The position numbers were made by a program, and so were the translations under genes. Of a stretch of DNA of 64,000 nt, positions 49,301 to 56,949 are shown in pieces. Under the pieces are notes generated by a model, which did no database searches, had not been told where the DNA came from, and worked only from the letters and a program-made list of their open reading frames with translations. The stretch comes from Anaerolineaceae bacterium. Its GTDB lineage: Bacteria > Chloroflexota > Anaerolineae > Aggregatilineales > Phototrophicaceae. The DNA lies in NCBI GenBank assembly GCA_016124855.1, contig WGMX01000027.1:1-64000 (forward strand). The letters run 5' to 3'. The number at the start of each line of letters is the position of its first letter. The stretch's first letter is position 1.

Positions 49301-49369
49301 TCGGTTATGTTCCTTAATAAGTTAAGTAAAAAATTTCTGTGATTGATATGTCGATTGTTCAGCGGCTTG

Positions 49370-49793
49370 GTTTGAAAACTCGAACCGATAGCGCTTTACT
49401 TTTGTGAACTTATGTTCTAAAATTAGATCATGTTTCTCTCAAATCGCATCTTCGACGGACTGGGCCTTTTAACTTATTTCTTGCCACTTGCATCTTAGTG
49501 GTTTGTCGAAAATATTAACAAATCAATCTTCTTCTTTACTCCCCTCTGCCATGAAATGGAGAGGGGCTGGGGGTGAGGATTTGATCTCACAACTTTTGAT
49601 AACCTACTTTGCAACTTTTGCACTGCGGTGGCTTTCTCCCTTCCATCCGCTGCAAAAGCGTCAATTCAGCGCCATCAGCCGAGCTTCCCGCCGACACAAA
49701 ATGTCAATTCAGCGCCTTGCTCCCTGAAATCCGCCAGTCATTTCGGCGGAAAATATGCAAATTATGCACAACTTGCGAATCATTTGCATCATT
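49370..49793 (+). repeat. SOS-promoter intergenic element, copy A
   Basis: The left module (49370-49445) starts GGTTTGAAAACTCGAACC and holds the promoter. The right module (about 49610-49793) is about 85-90 % identical by eye to about 56048-56252 and ends at AAATGATGCAAATGATTCGC on the minus strand. Between them is an unrelated CCCCTCT/AGAGGGG hairpin (49541-49566). The element fills the 488-base gap between the SDR and the endonuclease-like gene. No frame in it shows coding constraint. Confidence 0.75.
49395..49423 (+). promoter_or_regulatory. Promoter with perfect GAAC-N4-GTTC box (copy A)
   Basis: TTTACT (49395-49400), 17 bases, TAAAAT (49418-49423). GAACTTATGTTC (49406-49417) is a perfect palindrome of the LexA/DinR type that abuts the -10. 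A repressor bound there would exclude RNA polymerase. The transcript would run into the 3' end of the endonuclease-like gene on the other strand. Confidence 0.65.
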
Positions 49794-50847
49794 TGAGGGC
49801 GAGGTCAGCAAACATCGGTAAGTGATCGCTGCCATCAAAATCCCCTTTCCACGCGTTGACCGCTTGCAGTCCGGCGCTGTGCCAGATGTAATCGATGCGA
49901 ATGATCGGCGGTATAAAAGCAGGCCATCCAAAAGCGCGGGCGGCGGGCCAACTGCTGCCTAAACCAACACCTGCCTCGGCAAAGCTGTCCTGCATTCGGG
50001 CAGCAATTTGGGTGTAGGTCATACTGAAGTCACTGGTGTTGAAATCGCCAGCCACAATATACGGGTAAGGCTCGGTGGCGAGGTAAGCCAAGAGCGCATC
50101 AATTTGACTGTTACGGGTGGCATCATCAAAACCGAGGGCATAATGGACAAAATAATTATTGGTGAGATTTGTCCAACGGCCTGCGCCACCGGGACTCAGC
50201 AGATGAATATTATAAAGGGCGACACGCTGTCCCCTAAATTCGATGACATTGCGGTAAAGCGTCGGCATTCCGGGGATATGCGGATCAATTTCTTTAGAAA
50301 TGACAAAGGGGAAACGTGAATAGGTAATATTGACAGCCGAATACATGCCTGTTCGCATCTCGTCTTGCTGGCGGGTTTGATAGGGATAAGCATCATCCAG
50401 AGGCTTAAGTGCCTGCTCTTGATCCGATAACTGGACTTCCTGCAAAAAGATGATGTCAGGATTTTCGGCTAATGCTAACCGCGCAACACGTTCTGGATCG
50501 ATATTGAAGTGCGAAACATTATTGCTCATAACACGCAAGGGAATGGCTTGTGTAATCCGATTTTTAGGGAGAAAACGCGGGCCAATCCAGATGGCGACGA
50601 GGATGACAATCGGCAGTAAATAGAGCAGCGCACGACGAGAACGCACCCAAATCGACACCAGTGATAAAATCGGCAGCGGGATAAATAACAAAGGTGCGAA
50701 ACTGTTGATCTCGGACATGATCCAATGACGATCTTGAATCGTAAATCGGAGAACCAGATAGACAATCATCAGGATGAGATAGGACAGCGCAGCCGTGTTG
50801 GTGATGCGTCGCAGCAGTGATGGATGTGGGGATATTGAGCCAGCCAT
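49789..50847 (-). CDS. Membrane-anchored endonuclease/exonuclease/phosphatase-family protein
   Basis: A 352-residue protein. Three N-terminal hydrophobic helices (about 18-95) precede an EEP catalytic domain. Its active-site motifs are VMSNNVSHFN, IIFLQEVQL (metal Glu), ALYNIHLLSPGG (catalytic His), VAGDFNTSDFS (Asp/Asn) and a final SDHLPMFADLAL (Asp/His). Related proteins include membrane sphingomyelinase-like or lipid phosphatases and nucleases; the substrate cannot be chosen. The ATG at 50847 has a GAGG leader. The stop codon lies inside repeat copy A. Confidence 0.85.
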   Translation of the reverse strand: MAGSISPHPSLLRRITNTAALSYLILMIVYLVLRFTIQDRHWIMSEINSFAPLLFIPLPILSLVSIWVRSRRALLYLLPIVILVAIWIGPRFLPKNRITQAIPLRVMSNNVSHFNIDPERVARLALAENPDIIFLQEVQLSDQEQALKPLDDAYPYQTRQQDEMRTGMYSAVNITYSRFPFVISKEIDPHIPGMPTLYRNVIEFRGQRVALYNIHLLSPGGAGRWTNLTNNYFVHYALGFDDATRNSQIDALLAYLATEPYPYIVAGDFNTSDFSMTYTQIAARMQDSFAEAGVGLGSSWPAARAFGWPAFIPPIIRIDYIWHSAGLQAVNAWKGDFDGSDHLPMFADLALK

Positions 50848-51138
50848 AGCACCTCATTGGTAAACAGCACACCTATTTAAGCTGAGGTCACCTTGCGGAC
50901 ACCCATCATCTAAACACCTCAATAAGGCACGCCCCATTCGAAATGACCGGTTGCCATTAAGAATTAAGGGGTTCGTCGCTGGAATAGTCGCCTTAGCTAT
51001 TGCATTGAGAAGCGAGGTTAGGTTAATCTGAAAGGTAGAGTCACCGTCATTTATCAACCTTATCCCATTGGGCGCTTTGTTCGCTCGTGCGTCTTTCCAA
51101 ATCATAAGGTCAATCAAACATTCAGTCCGACGAATTGC

Positions 51139-52017
51139 ATGAACAACGCGCAAACCCAACTCTTTAAGAAACTGCTTCGAGATCAAATTGCCGGATTTGT
51201 CAGCGTCCAACGCTGCACCCTTGGGCAGCCGGCGATGGCTGCCGCTCCGGTGCGCGATGTCGATATTGTAGTGAAGATGTGGGCAGGCGTGGTCATCCAT
51301 ATTCATGTGATTGACGACCCCATCAAGGTGGGTAAGGTTCGCCGTATCATCGAGACTGCCACCGACACAGGCATTCCGGTTATGTTTCTGCTGGATGCGG
51401 ATTTGCTGCCAGCGGCCAAATCTCATATTCCTATTGACCAGTGGTATGTGCCGTTTCAATCGCTGGTCGATGATCGTGCCTATTGTTACCGCATAGAAGA
51501 TCATGCCCCAGTTATTCTGCCGGTGCAGTTTCGCCCCTACAGCCGCATCGAATTGGAAGTCAGTTACGGCGCACCCTTAGCCATCAGCCAGATTCAACAT
51601 TCGCGCGTCACCGTGCGTCAGAGTTCGCTCAAGGGATTCTGGCTGCTGGCGGACTTCGAAAGTGACCCGAGCGCCAACGCGCCACCCATACGGCGCACAG
51701 ATTACAGCGGTTACCAGTACACCGGGCCGCGCACATCGTTTCAAGATATGCCGCATTGGGAAAAAGTGCCACAGGGCGAAAAGTCCACGCCGCCGCCCAA
51801 CACCAGCCAGCCGCCAAAATCCAAACTGGAGCAGGCTTATGAAGTGCTGGGCGTGGCGACCAACGCCAGCCGTGAAGAGGTCAAGGCCGTTTTCCGTAAG
51901 TTAGCCTTTGAAGTTCACCCGGATGTGAGTACGCTGCCCAAACCAGAAGCCGAAGCCCGCTTCAAACTCTTAAGTGAGGCTTATGCGTTTATCAAAACAG
52001 CCAACCGCTGGGGATGA
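51139..52017 (+). CDS. J-domain protein with a large unknown N-terminal domain
   Basis: A 292-residue soluble protein. Residues 1-185 form an alpha/beta domain I do not recognise ([52 protein letters not shown]…[20 protein letters not shown]). A Pro-rich linker (about 195-225) leads to a C-terminal J domain (about 227-290) with an intact HPD in [13 protein letters not shown] domains stimulate DnaK, so this is probably a specialised co-chaperone. The downstream acetyltransferase starts only 8 bases after its stop. Confidence 0.7.
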
Positions 52018-52024
52018 GGAACGT

Positions 52025-52531
52025 TTGATAGTAAAAAATCAGCCTTTGGCTTTACAAGCACCACCAACCTCCATCACCATGCGGCAGGTACGACCAACCG
52101 ACAGTGACCGTTTACGCAGCAACTGCTGGCCTAATCGCACCTTCCTTACCGTTTATAATCTCATTACGCGGACGGTACGCAACACTGCCGATGGACGCGG
52201 TTTAGGCTTAGTGGTCGTAGGGGCGGATGACACCCCATTGGCTTACGGGCAGTTCACCTTATGGCCTACCTGCGCCGAAATTAGTGATTTGGTGGTGACC
52301 GAATCGCTGCGTGGGCAGGGTGTGGGTACAGCCTTAATTCAGGCTTTGGTCAAACGGGCGCGCTTGGACGGGGCTAAAGCCTTCGAAATCGGCGTGGCAA
52401 TGGATAATCCGCGCGCGGCAGCACTTTACCGCCGTTTAGGGTTTGAGGACAGCCATACGCTAATGATGGATTTAGAACGCGGCAAAGAGAAAATCTTATT
52501 CTTGCGCTTGGAAGCACCAAGAAGTCGATAA
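52025..52531 (+). CDS. GNAT-family N-acetyltransferase
   Basis: A 168-residue protein if started at TTG 52025, which has a GAGGA 5 bases upstream. An in-frame ATG at 52079 (MRQVRPTDSDRL) is the alternative. The overlapping longer frame into the J-domain gene is unlikely. GNAT motifs are AEISDLVVTESLRGQGVGTALIQALVKRA, with R-G-Q-G-V-G for acetyl-CoA, and MDNPRAAALYRRLGFEDSH. Substrate unknown. Confidence 0.75.
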   Translation: MIVKNQPLALQAPPTSITMRQVRPTDSDRLRSNCWPNRTFLTVYNLITRTVRNTADGRGLGLVVVGADDTPLAYGQFTLWPTCAEISDLVVTESLRGQGVGTALIQALVKRARLDGAKAFEIGVAMDNPRAAALYRRLGFEDSHTLMMDLERGKEKILFLRLEAPRSR

Positions 52532-52537
52532 AAACAA

Positions 52538-52563
52538 TTGAAGCGCCAAGACGCAAAGAGCGC
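52538..52563 (+). repeat. Dispersed AAGCGCCAAGACGCAAAGAGCGCCAAG repeat
   Basis: Short direct repeat of GCGCCAAGA units in the 62-base gap before the LysM-SGNH gene. It is of the same general type as the GACGCAGAG sequences elsewhere in the window. Confidence 0.4.
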
Positions 52564-52593
52564 CAAGATCAATGCAGAGAGTTTTCAGAGAAG

Positions 52594-53709
52594 ATGCAGA
52601 AGCGTTTGAGTCGTTCAGTCAGTCATTTTATATTCCGACTCACTGTGTGTACGACAATGTTGATGTTGGCATACAGCACCCGGGCACAGGATGTTCCACC
52701 CGCGACGCCTGCGCCGGTAACCTATACCGTGCAGCGTGGTGATATTTTATACCGCATCAGTAAGCAGTATGGCGTGACGGTGGCAGCCATCGCAGCCGCT
52801 AATGGCATAGTCGATGTCAACCGGATTAAGGTCGGGCAGGTATTGGTCATTCCGGCTGCCGGTACGACTGTCGAAGCGGCGAGTGTTCAACCACAGGCTA
52901 CACCGAATTCCCCGACCACCACCGCCATGGTGAACATCAGCGCGCCCTATGATGCGAACAGCATCAATGGTATACCCATGACTTCAATTGTGGTCATGCC
53001 GCCGCAAACTGTCCAAACTGTGCGCATGATTTATACGGTCGGGCAAGCCTTCAAGCGCAATCCGACCGCTTTTTCCAAACTCGGTGACAGCACAATCGAG
53101 AATCCCTATTTTCTCGCGCGCTTCGATACCACCGATTACAACCTCGGCAATTACAGTTATTTGCAGACGACCATTGATGCCTTTCGCGGTTCATTCGGAC
53201 GGGACAGCGTAGCCGTCCGGCGCGGTCTGCACAGTTGGTCGGTTTATGACCCGATGTGGACAGATACCAGCCAGTGCAGAATGGGTGAAACCATGCTTTT
53301 GTGCGAAATCCGCCTGAATAACCCCATGATGTTGATCATCAAATTAGGCTCAAATGATGTGGGTGTGCCGGATCAATTCGAGGCGAACATGCGGCGTTTG
53401 GTGGTGGATACGACCATGCAGGGTGTCATTCCGGTGCTGAGTACCAAAGCCGACCGCCATGAAGGCAGCGACATCAACAACGAGATTATCCGTAAGCTGG
53501 CGGCTGAATACAGTATTCCGTTATGGGATTTTGATCTGCTGGCGGGGACGCTGCCTGCGCGTGGTTTGGGTGAAGATCAGGTACATCTTACGACCTTTTA
53601 TGCCCACGATTGGCGTTTACCAGAGTCCCTGACACGCGGTTACGGCTTGATGGAATTGACGGGGTTGATGACGGTGAACACCGTCTGGCAGGCGGCGGTA
53701 GGTAATTAA
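52594..53709 (+). CDS. Exported LysM-SGNH/GDSL-like protein
   Basis: A 371-residue protein. A signal peptide (about 1-31, FRLTVCTTMLMLAYSTRA) is followed by a LysM domain, TYTVQRGDILYRISKQYGVTVAAIAAANGIVDVNRIKVGQVLVIP. The rest (about 110-370) looks like an SGNH hydrolase. IIKLGSNDVG gives the block-III G-x-N-D, and GEDQVHLTTFYA gives the block-V D-x-x-H. The block-I Ser is less clear: SKLGDSTIENPYFLARFD is the best GDS(T) candidate. It likely acts on cell-wall esters or surface polysaccharides. Confidence 0.75.
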   Translation: MQKRLSRSVSHFIFRLTVCTTMLMLAYSTRAQDVPPATPAPVTYTVQRGDILYRISKQYGVTVAAIAAANGIVDVNRIKVGQVLVIPAAGTTVEAASVQPQATPNSPTTTAMVNISAPYDANSINGIPMTSIVVMPPQTVQTVRMIYTVGQAFKRNPTAFSKLGDSTIENPYFLARFDTTDYNLGNYSYLQTTIDAFRGSFGRDSVAVRRGLHSWSVYDPMWTDTSQCRMGETMLLCEIRLNNPMMLIIKLGSNDVGVPDQFEANMRRLVVDTTMQGVIPVLSTKADRHEGSDINNEIIRKLAAEYSIPLWDFDLLAGTLPARGLGEDQVHLTTFYAHDWRLPESLTRGYGLMELTGLMTVNTVWQAAVGN

Positions 53710-54206
53710 AAGAATATTTGTAAAAAGACAAGTTACTCATTAGATGTTTTCTTTGAAGCAAATGTTATACCCCTACCCATTTTCCTGAATCGCTTGGCTG
53801 AGGGCTGGGTTCACATTTTATCAACACTGCACTTCGCGACCTATTATTCTCAAAATTGCCTCTAATTGCTTAGCGAAACCCAAACATTAGATTCTAGTAT
53901 TTGTGGTTAGATTTTATGGCTACCTGATAAAGCAATTGTAAACACTTTACTTTTTTGAACACCTAATATAATCTTTAAAAAATACACATTTACTTTCTTA
54001 ATTAAAATAAATGTTATGCCTCATAAATTATCTAATGACTCATCCAAGCATGAGAATAATTCTCTCCTTAGAACAATACGCTATAGGCGAAACCTCGCTT
54101 GCGCGATAAAGAAATTAGTGCCTGACGACATTAAAGATAGTGTGTACAAATTCGGTGATAACAAACTGAAACCTGTGAAACAAAAGCATATCTAGGAGAA
54201 ATGAAA
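53710..54206. other. AT-rich 497-base intergenic stretch, no gene seen
   Basis: No frame has a start with ribosome site and recognisable product. A perfect 13-base palindrome GAGAATAATTCTC is at 54052-54064, about 145 bases before the next gene, and could be an operator for a small repressor. The composition is AT-richer than the flanks. It may hold the promoter for the membrane protein downstream. Confidence 0.5.
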
Positions 54207-54623
54207 ATGGATTTCGCAACGTTTCTTGCACCACTGTTTGGGATCGCGTTTTTGGTCGAACGAGTACTTGAATCGGCATGGAATATCGTTGAGCTGATGC
54301 CAAACATTCAAAAGATGAAAATCGATCCGGCAACAGCCCCTAATTACTCGCGTATTAAACAAATCGTTAGCGTTCTTGCTGGAATTTTGATCGGCATGTT
54401 CGCCGCCAATGTTGTTAAATTGACCATGTTCGCCAAAATCGGCATTGTTGGATTAGACCCATCAACCGATGCCCTTATTTCCGGTGCGATTGCTGGTACG
54501 CTCGCGCCTTATGCCCATCAAATTCTGGAGGGCTTGCTCAACCTGCAAAAACTGCTCCAACAGCAGCAGCAGAAAATTGCGGCAGACACCCCACCCGTTG
54601 TGGATGTCCATCCGCTTCCATAA
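54207..54623 (+). CDS. Small membrane protein, unknown function
   Basis: A 138-residue protein. The ATG at 54207 is 8 bases from AGGAG; the ATG at 54201 is too close. There are three hydrophobic segments (FLAPLFGIAFLVERVL, VSVLAGILIGMFAANVV and ISGAIAGTLAPYAHQIL), a Gln-rich stretch (LLQQQQQKIAADTP) and a short polar tail. The layout resembles small membrane-scaffold or phage-holin-like proteins, but no motif is diagnostic. Confidence 0.65.
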   Translation: MDFATFLAPLFGIAFLVERVLESAWNIVELMPNIQKMKIDPATAPNYSRIKQIVSVLAGILIGMFAANVVKLTMFAKIGIVGLDPSTDALISGAIAGTLAPYAHQILEGLLNLQKLLQQQQQKIAADTPPVVDVHPLP

Positions 54624-54660
54624 AAAATGTGTGGGTTCAAAAGTTATTAGAAAACCGATT

Positions 54661-54736
54661 TTATTCCCTCCCTCGTTTACGGGCGACCTGCGACTGAGCG
54701 CAGCGCAAGGTAGCAGGGAGGGTTAGGGTGGGGGTT
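54661..54736. repeat. Intergenic hairpin repeat of the CCCTCCC...GGGAGGG type
   Basis: CCCTCCCTCGTTTACGGG at one side and GGGAGGGTTAGGGTGGGGG at the other enclose a 35-base GC-rich centre. The outer arms match the segment at 18067-18146 read on the other strand. It is located just after the small membrane-protein gene. Confidence 0.6.
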
Positions 54737-54890
54737 CTAATTTCTTTTAAGAACTTATTATCTGACCACTATCAAAAGATTTGATCCCAAGCACAGGCGC
54801 GAATATGGTTTGATGCAAAACCATGCCGCATGGTTTAAAATTGCCTCAAAATGAGCGCTTTTTGAATTGAATATTAAACAAGGGATCAAA

Positions 54891-55625
54891 ATGACCGAAA
54901 CAAACGATATTGTACGCCCTTCCAAAGAACTGATCGAAGGTTTAAAGCATATCAGCAGTGCCACCGCAACCGGTGAACTCAGCCGCTTAGGTGTTCGCGA
55001 TGCCCAGATTAAAGGGCCAAAATCGTGGACACCCGGCAAGGCTGTCGTTGGCCCGGCGCTGACACTTCAATTCATGCCCAAGCGTGAAGATTTGTACGGC
55101 GAAAACGAATACACCGATCCTGAGAAACAGCTTCACCGTCATGTTCTGTATCATACCCAACCCGGCGACATCGTGGTTGTGGATGCGCGTGGCAGCATGA
55201 ACAGTGGCATCTTCGGCGAAATGATGTTGACCTACTTTCATGGGCGTGGCGGCGCAGGCGTGGTCATTGACGGTTGCATCCGTGATTACCCCAAAGCCAA
55301 AGACATCGGCCTCGGTTTGTGGCTCAAAGGTGTGACTCCCAATTATCACACTCAGACCACACTCATGCCGTTCGCGGTCAATGTGCCGGTGGCTTGCGGC
55401 GATACGCTGGTGATGCCCGGTGACATTATTATCGCGGATGATGATGGCGTGGTTGTTGTGCCCATCAAACTTGCGCCCGAACTGCTGGCGAAGGCCAGTG
55501 AGCATCACGAATGGGAAGAATTTTCCAAGCTCAAGTTGTCCGAAGGCGGCGACCTGCGGAAGTATTATCCACTGCGTGAAGATGCCCAAGCCGAATATCA
55601 AGAATGGCGCAAGAACCACAAATAA
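54891..55625 (+). CDS. RraA-like / 4-hydroxy-4-methyl-2-oxoglutarate aldolase family protein
   Basis: A 244-residue protein from the ATG at 54891 with AAGGGATC upstream. The family core is GRGGAGVVIDGCIRDYPKAKDIGLGLWLKGVTPNYH, in which the Arg and Asp of DGCIRD bind pyruvate and metal in HMG aldolases. Then come VPVACGDTLVMPGDIIIADDDGVVVVP. Such proteins retro-aldol cleave HMG or decarboxylate oxaloacetate; RNase E inhibition is specific to true RraA. No pathway partner is adjacent. Confidence 0.85.
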   Translation: MTETNDIVRPSKELIEGLKHISSATATGELSRLGVRDAQIKGPKSWTPGKAVVGPALTLQFMPKREDLYGENEYTDPEKQLHRHVLYHTQPGDIVVVDARGSMNSGIFGEMMLTYFHGRGGAGVVIDGCIRDYPKAKDIGLGLWLKGVTPNYHTQTTLMPFAVNVPVACGDTLVMPGDIIIADDDGVVVVPIKLAPELLAKASEHHEWEEFSKLKLSEGGDLRKYYPLREDAQAEYQEWRKNHK

Positions 55626-55714
55626 AGCGCATGTATGTGTTTTCTCCCCTCCCTGATACTTCGGTTCAGGAGACGACACTTTTTCGACAACCCAGTAATT
55701 TCTCCCTCAAAATT

Positions 55715-55753
55715 CCCCCTCTCTGTACACGGAGAGGGGGCTAGGGGGTGAGG
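55715..55753. repeat. CCCCCTCTC/GAGAGGGGG hairpin repeat
   Basis: CCCCCTCTC (55715-55723) pairs with GAGAGGGGG (55732-55740), followed by CTAGGGGGTGAGG. The same arrangement occurs at 49541-49578 (CCCCTCT…AGAGGGG, CTGGGGGTGAGG). It is a dispersed intergenic hairpin. The part 55626-55852 has no gene. Confidence 0.7.
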
Positions 55754-55852
55754 TTCTTCCCCTCATTTCACAAAACTGTCGTGTGGTGAAGATACTTCGG
55801 GGTGGGGTTTCTGCTCTCTTCATCACCCCTTACATCTAACCACGACCAAAAA

Positions 55853-56252
55853 GGTTTGAAAACTCGAACCGAATCGCGTTGACAATAATGAACTTTCGTT
55901 CTATAATGAGGTGTGTTTTTCTCTCAAAATCTCGGTGTTTGCTTTGAAAACCCTTATGCGAAACGTGATAAACTCACTCTCCGATCTCTGCATTCTCCGC
56001 GTCTCTGCGGTTCAATTTTGTCTTTCCTCTGGACGGTTCAAAAGTATTGCAACTACAGCAGCGGCACACCCCAAATCTGCACGCGGTGGCATCAGCCGAG
56101 CGATCCGCTGCAAAAGCGTCATTTCAGTGGCATTGAGCGAGCTTCCCGCCGACACAAAATGTCAATTCAGCGCCTTGCTCCCTCACATCCGCCGGTCATT
56201 TCAGCGGAAAATATGCAAAATATGCAGCAGTTGCGAATCATTTGAATCATTT
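55853..56252 (+). repeat. SOS-promoter intergenic element, copy B
   Basis: The left module (55853-55932) matches copy A from GGTTTGAAAACTCGAACC through the promoter to TTTCTCTCAAA. The right module (about 56048-56252) matches copy A from GCGGTGGC to the end. The middle differs and carries the GACGCAGAG-type repeat (55986-56015). On the minus strand the element begins at the stop of the phosphatase gene: TAA, then ATGATTCAAATGATTCGC. Confidence 0.75.
55879..55907 (+). promoter_or_regulatory. Consensus promoter with perfect GAAC-N4-GTTC box (copy B)
   Basis: TTGACA (55879-55884), exactly 17 bases, TATAAT (55902-55907): both hexamers match the sigma-70 consensus. GAACTTTCGTTC (55890-55901) abuts the -10, the same placement as in copy A. 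No gene with a recognisable product follows on this strand. The transcript would be antisense to the end of the phosphatase gene. Confidence 0.7.
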
Positions 56253-56949
56253 ACTTTGCCTCGTATCCACGAATGACATCGGCATATTGACGTTGTAAAT
56301 CAGCCCAGTGATCTCCACGACTAGGAACACTAATCAGATCAAAGCCGGGGAGCATCAAGCCTGTTAGTGAGCCGCCATAAACACAGCGGGTATCAATCCC
56401 CCAAACACGGTCTTTGTAATTGAGTACCTGCATCTTATCGGTGTAATCGCGATGTCCCATAATCAGCGGTTTATCACCGTCGTAACGTTCATACCAAGGC
56501 CACGACCAGCGCTTGCGTAGATATTCCTCACCGCTTAACGTTCCGACGACGACGGTTTCACGCTGATCTTCCAGCGCCACACCCGGTTCATAAAAGCCAT
56601 GAACCAGCAACGCATCCGGCAAATCTATGTAGTGCGGCAGGTCACTCATATAGCCGATCACTTCAGGATAAATATCTTCGGTGATCTGCTTGCGCGTGAT
56701 AATTTGCGAGGCAGCCGGTTCAACTTGTTCATCAAACCAGCGGACGTGTTTACGCTCATGGTTGCCCATAATCGAGTCCGCATTGGGCGTGTCACGGAAG
56801 AACTCGATCACACTGGCAGAATCTAAACCACGATCTACCATGTCGCCTATCGAGATAATCTGGTCGTCGCTGTTTAGCGCGGCTTTATCGAGCAAATCTT
56901 GTAACTCAGCATAGCAGCCGTGAATGTCACCGATAATGAAGTAACGCAT
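56251..56949 (-). CDS. Metallophosphatase of the PrpE/ApaH-like calcineurin family
   Basis: A 232-residue protein with the binuclear-metal motifs IIGDIHGCYAELQ, ISIGDMVDRGLDS and SIMGNHERKH, then a distal His in LLVHGFY and PLIMGHRDY. Members act on phosphoproteins or dinucleoside polyphosphates. It follows the deoxyribosyltransferase-like gene by 9 bases on the same strand. Its stop codon lies at the boundary of repeat copy B. Confidence 0.88.
   Translation of the reverse strand: MRYFIIGDIHGCYAELQDLLDKAALNSDDQIISIGDMVDRGLDSASVIEFFRDTPNADSIMGNHERKHVRWFDEQVEPAASQIITRKQITEDIYPEVIGYMSDLPHYIDLPDALLVHGFYEPGVALEDQRETVVVGTLSGEEYLRKRWSWPWYERYDGDKPLIMGHRDYTDKMQVLNYKDRVWGIDTRCVYGGSLTGLMLPGFDLISVPSRGDHWADLQRQYADVIRGYEAK

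Follow-up and report, generated by a model that had tools for sequence, protein, structure and literature searches.

A high-copy dispersed intergenic element with a LexA-type operator in its promoter in an Anaerolineaceae genome

Two intergenic copies and the family they belong to

The stretch of DNA analysed here (the window) comprises positions 1 to 64,000 of contig WGMX01000027.1 from the Anaerolineaceae bacterium assembly GCA_016124855.1, and it holds two copies, A and B, of an intergenic element whose left end is a sigma-70-type promoter with a putative LexA operator and whose right end is a palindromic array. A first-pass annotation, made from the letters of the window, had placed both copies and described in each a GAAC-N4-GTTC palindrome abutting the -10 hexamer and a 17-nucleotide (nt) promoter spacer, all of which we confirmed. 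The features of the two copies, and the open reading frames (ORFs) that end at them, are as follows.

49369 to 49388, forward strand: left-end motif of A, GGTTTGAAAACTCGAACCGA, upstream of the -35 (40 matches in the genome with up to three mismatches versus 1 for the control, the reversed pattern)
49395 to 49400, forward strand: -35 hexamer of A, TTTACT
49406 to 49417, forward strand: LexA-type operator of A, GAACTTATGTTC, of the motif type found at lexA and recA
49418 to 49423, forward strand: -10 hexamer of A, TAAAAT
49424 to 49624, forward strand: variable middle of A, not common to B
49625 to 49794, forward strand: right module of A, with units of about 44, 43 and 34 nt (GCGG ... CCGC) and then an A+T-rich TGC-repeat tail
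49789 to 50847, reverse strand: ORF convergent with A, its stop codon inside the final bases of A
55853 to 55872, forward strand: left-end motif of B, a 20-mer identical to that of A
55879 to 55884, forward strand: -35 hexamer of B, TTGACA, consensus
55890 to 55901, forward strand: LexA-type operator of B, GAACTTTCGTTC
55902 to 55907, forward strand: -10 hexamer of B, TATAAT, consensus
55908 to 56082, forward strand: variable middle of B, not common to A
56083 to 56252, forward strand: right module of B, the top-scoring match of the family model
56251 to 56949, reverse strand: ORF convergent with B, its stop codon touching the end of B

Comparison of the copies revealed that the shared sequence is confined to 58 nt at the left and 170 nt at the right. 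The left modules (49369-49426 and 55853-55910) align ungapped at 74% identity and the right modules at 86% identity across 170 nt, such that the two shared modules of the first-pass annotation stand; the middles of about 200 nt in A and about 175 nt in B are not shared, and the element is therefore bipartite with a variable middle. Both operators directly adjoin the -10 and both promoters have the 17-nt spacer, with hexamers that match consensus at 12 of 12 positions in B, as previously described, versus 9 of 12 in A.

Throughout, G000 denotes the genome of the window (7.1 Mb), other G numbers its relatives and L numbers individual loci. The two copies proved to be members of a much larger family. 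A covariance model of the right module, built from 40 copies and applied at E≤0.001 to at most the 150 best candidates per genome, gave at least 112 matches in G000, a count that may be low for that reason, along with at least 150 in G003, 125 in G009, 115 in G015, 39 in G001, 32 in G014, 16 in G012 and 13 in G010. The module is thus present in 7 of the 16 other genomes of the genus, with no covariance-model match in the remaining nine. Under stricter filters, and with the best 31 candidates per genome scored so that absence there is weak evidence, 9 of 98 family genomes had a match, these being the same eight genus genomes plus G080, from another genus, with 2 matches. BLAST with the right module of B gave at least 41 matches in G000 (the best 40 of 122 candidates scored) and a separate BLAST search detected the element in 4 of 61 relatives. 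The exact promoter pattern GAACN4GTTCTANNAT occurs at 30 sites in G000 versus 1 for its control, and such an excess is far more than chance would produce. Far from being unique to two sites, the modules hence occur in more than 100 copies, and the BLAST, left-motif and covariance-model matches strongly support the dispersed element that had been proposed. This family is larger, more widespread and more decayed than two copies could reveal. A strict left-module pattern searched against 84,980 species genomes, as exact matches only and in a set from which records near G000 may be missing, returned 42 stretches, 41 of them in a single Anaerolineae metagenome-assembled genome, MGR_bin408. A contig labelled Bacteroidetes (L124, JAPUDW010000411) also carries a full element with box and module, and mis-binning is suspected there.

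Inspection by eye resolved the right module into its units (about 44, 43 and 34 nt), in each of which GCGG and CCGC enclose an inner segment and an A+T-rich link follows. The inner segments occur in either orientation among copies (GCCGAGC or GCTCGGC; GAGGGAGC or GCTCCCTC, also by eye), as would be expected if the palindromes flip through template switching. The geometry is nearly fixed, with 44 of 46 modules free of indels across the first 126 columns and the other two differing by one extra base (L042) or one missing base (L049); both were left out of alignment A2, which holds 40 of 47 modules. The left motif lies within 450 nt upstream on the same strand at 40 of 47 modules with up to four mismatches, 37 of these having no more than three. 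Between the ends, the middle differs widely in length, being far shorter than 100 nt in some copies and longer than 350 nt in others, and by eye it contains other small repeats. One of these has near-inverted ends (GGTAGCACCACACTAAACGGTGGA ... TCCACCACTTAATGCAGTCCTACC) and lies in the stretch that separates the promoter from the right module in L045/L076 and L069 of G000 and in several G003 copies, among them L111, L122, L123 and L127.

The operator and its link to the palindromic array

The first-pass annotation had likened the palindrome to the SOS box of Gram-positive bacteria, and the promoters of the organism's own lexA and recA carry a box of the same type. GAAC-N4-GTTC is present at the lexA promoter in 16 of the 17 genus genomes, the G002 locus giving no match, in a layout of TTGACAACC (TTGACACC in one genome) followed by the palindrome ahead of the -10. 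This first operator lies between the -35 and the -10, and a second, GAAC-N4-(A/T)TTC, follows the -10 (L091, L187-L202). At recA, considered for G000 only, TTGCCA is followed by a 17-nt spacer ending in GAACGTCTGTGC and then by TAAAAT, which is the box and -10 layout of copies A and B, with one change in the palindrome. Given these recA and lexA forms, the element variants GAAC-N4-GTGC and GAAC-N4-ATTC have counterparts at recA and lexA. The element's operator is therefore like those of the genome's own lexA and recA, as is expected of a LexA regulon member, and the comparison supports reading the palindrome as a LexA-type operator. PMC3323433 gives the same motif for Bacillus subtilis and notes its confirmation in Mycobacterium tuberculosis. 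Gram-positive LexA/DinR operators likewise consist of this palindrome at a promoter, as seen here also at genus lexA and at G000 recA, but they serve repair genes, whereas the element's box sits in repeated intergenic DNA.

We evaluated the association of box and array from both directions. Starting from the box, 29 of the 30 exact GAAC-N4-GTTC-TANNAT sites in G000 have a right module on the same strand within 800 nt downstream, as do all 30 sites fetched out of 31 found with up to one mismatch. The sole exact box of this layout in G000 with no right module downstream is L308 (G000:C24, about 6282). Starting from the module in G000, an exact box occurs in the 500 nt upstream of 26 out of 73 modules versus 0-3 for 11 permuted palindromes, and a box with up to one mismatch at 47 versus at most 18; these 73 remain from 80 after seven with short upstream sequence were dropped, and the set was partly fetched via the box or the left pattern. 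Among loci fetched by the right module alone (62 loci, yielding 55 counted modules), the box is exact in 16 of 55 and within one mismatch in 31 of 55.

The association extends to relatives. Across 26 loci of G001, G010, G012, G014 and G080 found by the model only, a box with up to one mismatch lies upstream in 22, versus at most 9 for permutations, although some of the 22 (L325, L169) are at places that do not resemble a promoter, and an exact box lies upstream in 7 versus at most 2. Seven G015 loci were left out of this set, and one G001 locus (L177) was dropped since its model match lies elsewhere in the locus; its box, with one mismatch, is 109 nt upstream. Being mostly box-selected, the promoter sets of G003 and G010 were not used for box enrichment. 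In G012 the box immediately follows TTGACA in 6 of 6 loci, and this different layout, with the box beside the -35, argues that the operator itself is kept. Within G000, across 43 promoters with GTTC beside the -10, GAAC carries 0.9-1.6 bits and the preceding spacer 0.1-0.5 bits, with the first three N4 bases at 1.0-1.6 bits and the fourth fixed by the search pattern. A further 14 promoters with GTGC in place of GTTC have an extended-10-like form and a weaker left half-site. Taken as a whole, the patterns make LexA control likely for many copies and doubtful for others.

Placement between genes and turnover

Gene orientations, taken from simple ORF calls, revealed that elements lie mostly between convergent genes, except in G015. 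Upstream and downstream genes were oriented +|- at 25, -|- at 11, +|+ at 4 and -|+ at 3 of 43 loci in G000, and in the same order at 13, 6, 2 and 2 loci in G003, 7, 0, 1 and 1 in G009, and 1, 4, 1 and 2 in G015; G001, G014 and G012 contributed 4, 3 and 3 loci, too few for a pattern.

At the positions of A and B, the orthologous flanks in G003 are separated only by a short intergenic stretch of unrelated sequence that lacks the element. As that G003 DNA is unrelated at both sites, insertion boundaries are unreadable and these are not clean empty sites. Eight G003 element loci have a neighbouring gene in common with a G000 element locus, and the element has the same orientation in five and the opposite in three. 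These eight were kept from ten matched loci, after L100, which matched L064 a second time, and L134, which is distant from its element, had been dropped; for L108, L111, L119 and L120 the match involves a single flank, and the contigs of L108 and L119 showed no copy of the module itself. In the five G000/G003 locus pairs that were aligned, the middles fail to match, and by eye the left and right ends of the element differ and its tails vary. The shared loci fit repeated insertion, or inversion, at favoured sites, which is not proof of mobility. An autonomous partner was also looked for at five loci that either contain long gaps or have just one module, and by eye their ORFs resembled ordinary genes.

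The element as a proposed damage-switched repeat, and other explanations

These copies form a high-copy dispersed intergenic element in which a sigma-70-type promoter with a LexA-type operator in its spacer is followed by an unconserved stretch and then by an array of G+C-rich palindromic units of fixed geometry, and we think it likely that the copies with an intact operator are switched together by DNA damage. LexA bound to the operator would overlap the RNA-polymerase site beside the -10 and so keep copies silent, and in one sister species the predicted operator adjoins the -35 instead. Upon damage, LexA self-cleavage would switch on the copies with intact operators together; since many copies carry a switch of the lexA/recA type, many would be expected to turn on at once, giving transcripts with a predicted length of a few hundred nt that run into the array. 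A bolder and rather unlikely reading is that the element is or was mobile and spread via the host SOS response, in which case dozens of LexA-repressed promoters, among them almost every perfect box of this layout in G000, would fire after damage, and transcription across the arrays would yield RNA, or expose single-stranded hairpins, that feed amplification, coupling damage to repeat spread.

Several observations weigh against a repeat switched by damage. About half of the G000 copies in the right-module-only set have only a degenerate box; the earlier idea of a dispersed element with an SOS-type promoter holds in outline. The box is also weaker in G015, where 3 of 24 are exact and 12 of 24 lie within one mismatch (permutations reach at most 0 and 6), and in G009, where 5 of 18 are exact and 10 of 18 lie within one mismatch (at most 3 and 7), and N4 is conserved almost like GAAC, such that part of the box conservation may reflect shared descent. 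On the side of the RNA, the predicted fold of B is unremarkable (z -1.1, versus -2.6 for A), a conserved fold was rejected, covariation being almost absent with two-sided change in 1 of 17 pairs, and neither A nor B has an intrinsic terminator at the end of its module; the one terminator-like match in each copy falls in the variable middle at about shuffle level. Rfam gave no gathering matches in the window and none at E≤1 in eight loci. For mobility, no transposase could be linked, the best module match in the flanks of three Y1_Tnp genes having E 0.02, with that family being the one searched.

One alternative, which we regard as rather unlikely, is that the family is a decaying multicopy gene for a small SOS-induced protein, whose ancestor had the promoter, LexA box, ribosome-binding site, ATG and a short ORF (beginning near MSPTAH) running into the array, with most G000 copies being relics that lost the start. 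In two sister species, a Shine-Dalgarno (SD) sequence plus ATG follows the -10 by 35-39 nt in 13 of 19 box-selected G010 promoters, with N-termini often of the MS..AH kind, and by 34-35 nt in 12 of 41 box-selected G003 promoters, starts of the MSP-AH kind occurring in both. A start kept after the promoter in two sister species suggests descent from a small SOS gene, and a short ORF under SOS control could be either the ancestral state or a single gain that was later lost. A conserved start, ribosome-binding site and open frame are thus partly present in G010 and G003 and are not found together in G000, where six SD-like starts lie at scattered positions among 53 promoters and L064 is the only copy to retain a similar ORF with an SD (66 aa); G015 has 1 of 21 and G009 1 of 12. 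Complete G010 ORFs moreover stop at differing places (60-102 aa), and the array stays conserved where the start has been lost. Across 126 nt of the 47 G000 modules, forward frames 0, 1 and 2 are open in 16, 18 and 29 and the reverse frames in 0, 2 and 1. The open state of frame 2 in 29 modules would suit a protein, but the synonymous fraction is below expectation both in that frame (0.235 versus 0.298) and in frame 0 (0.231 versus 0.297). It exceeds expectation only in forward frame 1 (0.369 versus 0.285) and reverse frame 0 (0.330 versus 0.288), frames that carry stops in most or all copies, and a coding right module in G000 was rejected. In their most open frame the G000 copies lack synonymous enrichment just as A versus B does, in line with the earlier remark that the peptide of the longest shared frame is not conserved. 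We conclude that the right module is probably non-coding in G000, which accords with the first proposal that the predicted RNA is non-coding. The loci with SD plus ATG ORFs are, in G010, L310-L316 except L312, L344-L346, L348, L349 and L352, and, in G003, L095, L104/L166, L109, L132 and L136; by eye, the N-terminus of these short ORFs is often near MSPTAH and some have an Ala-rich hydrophobic stretch.

Nor does an ordinary repeat spread by a DNA mechanism, with an accidental promoter and a box inherited without LexA control, appear probable to us. Such a repeat would account for the patchy, high-copy, intergenic distribution, the many decayed boxes, the other small repeats in the middle and the conserved N4, but the box-array link persists despite changed promoter layout and array sequence in G010, G012 and G014, and the box stands out in conservation from its spacer. 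A selected host function, with the copies acting as an array of LexA decoys or as sources of damage-induced antisense RNA aimed at the 3' ends of the convergent genes beside them, seems improbable. At 36 of 43 G000 and 19 of 23 G003 loci the gene downstream is transcribed towards the element, as antisense action would have it; tolerance alone, however, would also place elements between convergent genes, a convergent pair is found at only 1 of 8 G015 loci, G003 lacks the element at the A and B sites, and 3 of the 8 shared loci have it in the opposite orientation.

Placed among known systems, the element resembles miniature inverted-repeat transposable elements (MITEs) and repetitive extragenic palindromic (REP) sequences and bacterial interspersed mosaic elements (BIMEs), being like them short, high-copy, mostly intergenic, palindromic and lineage-limited, with no transposase recognised inside, and its high-copy intergenic palindromic units are of the REP/BIME kind. 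It departs from them in that one of its conserved ends consists of a promoter and its operator; neither paired terminal inverted repeats nor a duplicated target could be established. REP superfamilies carry GTAG/CGTC tags (PMC3733652), whereas by eye we recognised no constant GTAG/CGTC tag in the element consensus; as to a linked RAYT gene, another REP/BIME trait, no module lies beside the three Y1_Tnp genes. The SOS-induced small proteins TisB, DinQ and SymE of Escherichia coli likewise have a LexA-controlled promoter followed by a short ORF, as in the two sister species, some copies of which are Ala-rich and hydrophobic by eye; the element differs in having tens to more than 100 copies and in the absence of the ORF from most G000 copies. 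Integron integrases and phage GIL01, which are LexA-controlled mobile elements, similarly tie mobile DNA to the SOS response, but no recombinase or phage gene was recognised in the element. We rate it as a dispersed palindromic repeat of known kind, in which the apparently new part is the conserved LexA-type operator. No description of such an element was found in the titles and abstract openings of the literature searched, with most subscription journals outside its scope, and little SOS literature was found there for Anaerolineae-type bacteria. Accounts of SOS regulons usually list repair genes; in this genome a repeat accounts for 29 of the 30 perfect boxes with one promoter layout. If the copies respond to damage, the size of the regulon would change, as perhaps would the threshold for LexA titration and the transcription near convergent genes, and the element would offer a natural case for asking whether repeats exploit the damage response.

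Smaller repeats and palindromes accompany the copies. Just 5' of the -35, within the left-end motif, lies a second, imperfect palindrome, GTTTGA-N4-TCGAAC (49370-49385 in A, 55854-55869 in B), a possible site for another regulator, of which some G009 and G015 copies have, by eye, altered yet near-palindromic forms. A further repeat of the GAGAGGGGCTGGGGGTGAGG type lies near both copies (49559-49578 and 55734-55753), and a stretch resembling it is also present in the G003 intergenic DNA at the B site. Degenerate low-complexity repeats, such as CTCTGTGTCTCTGTGGTTAA, occur in the middle of B at about 55990-56015 and in the middles of other copies.

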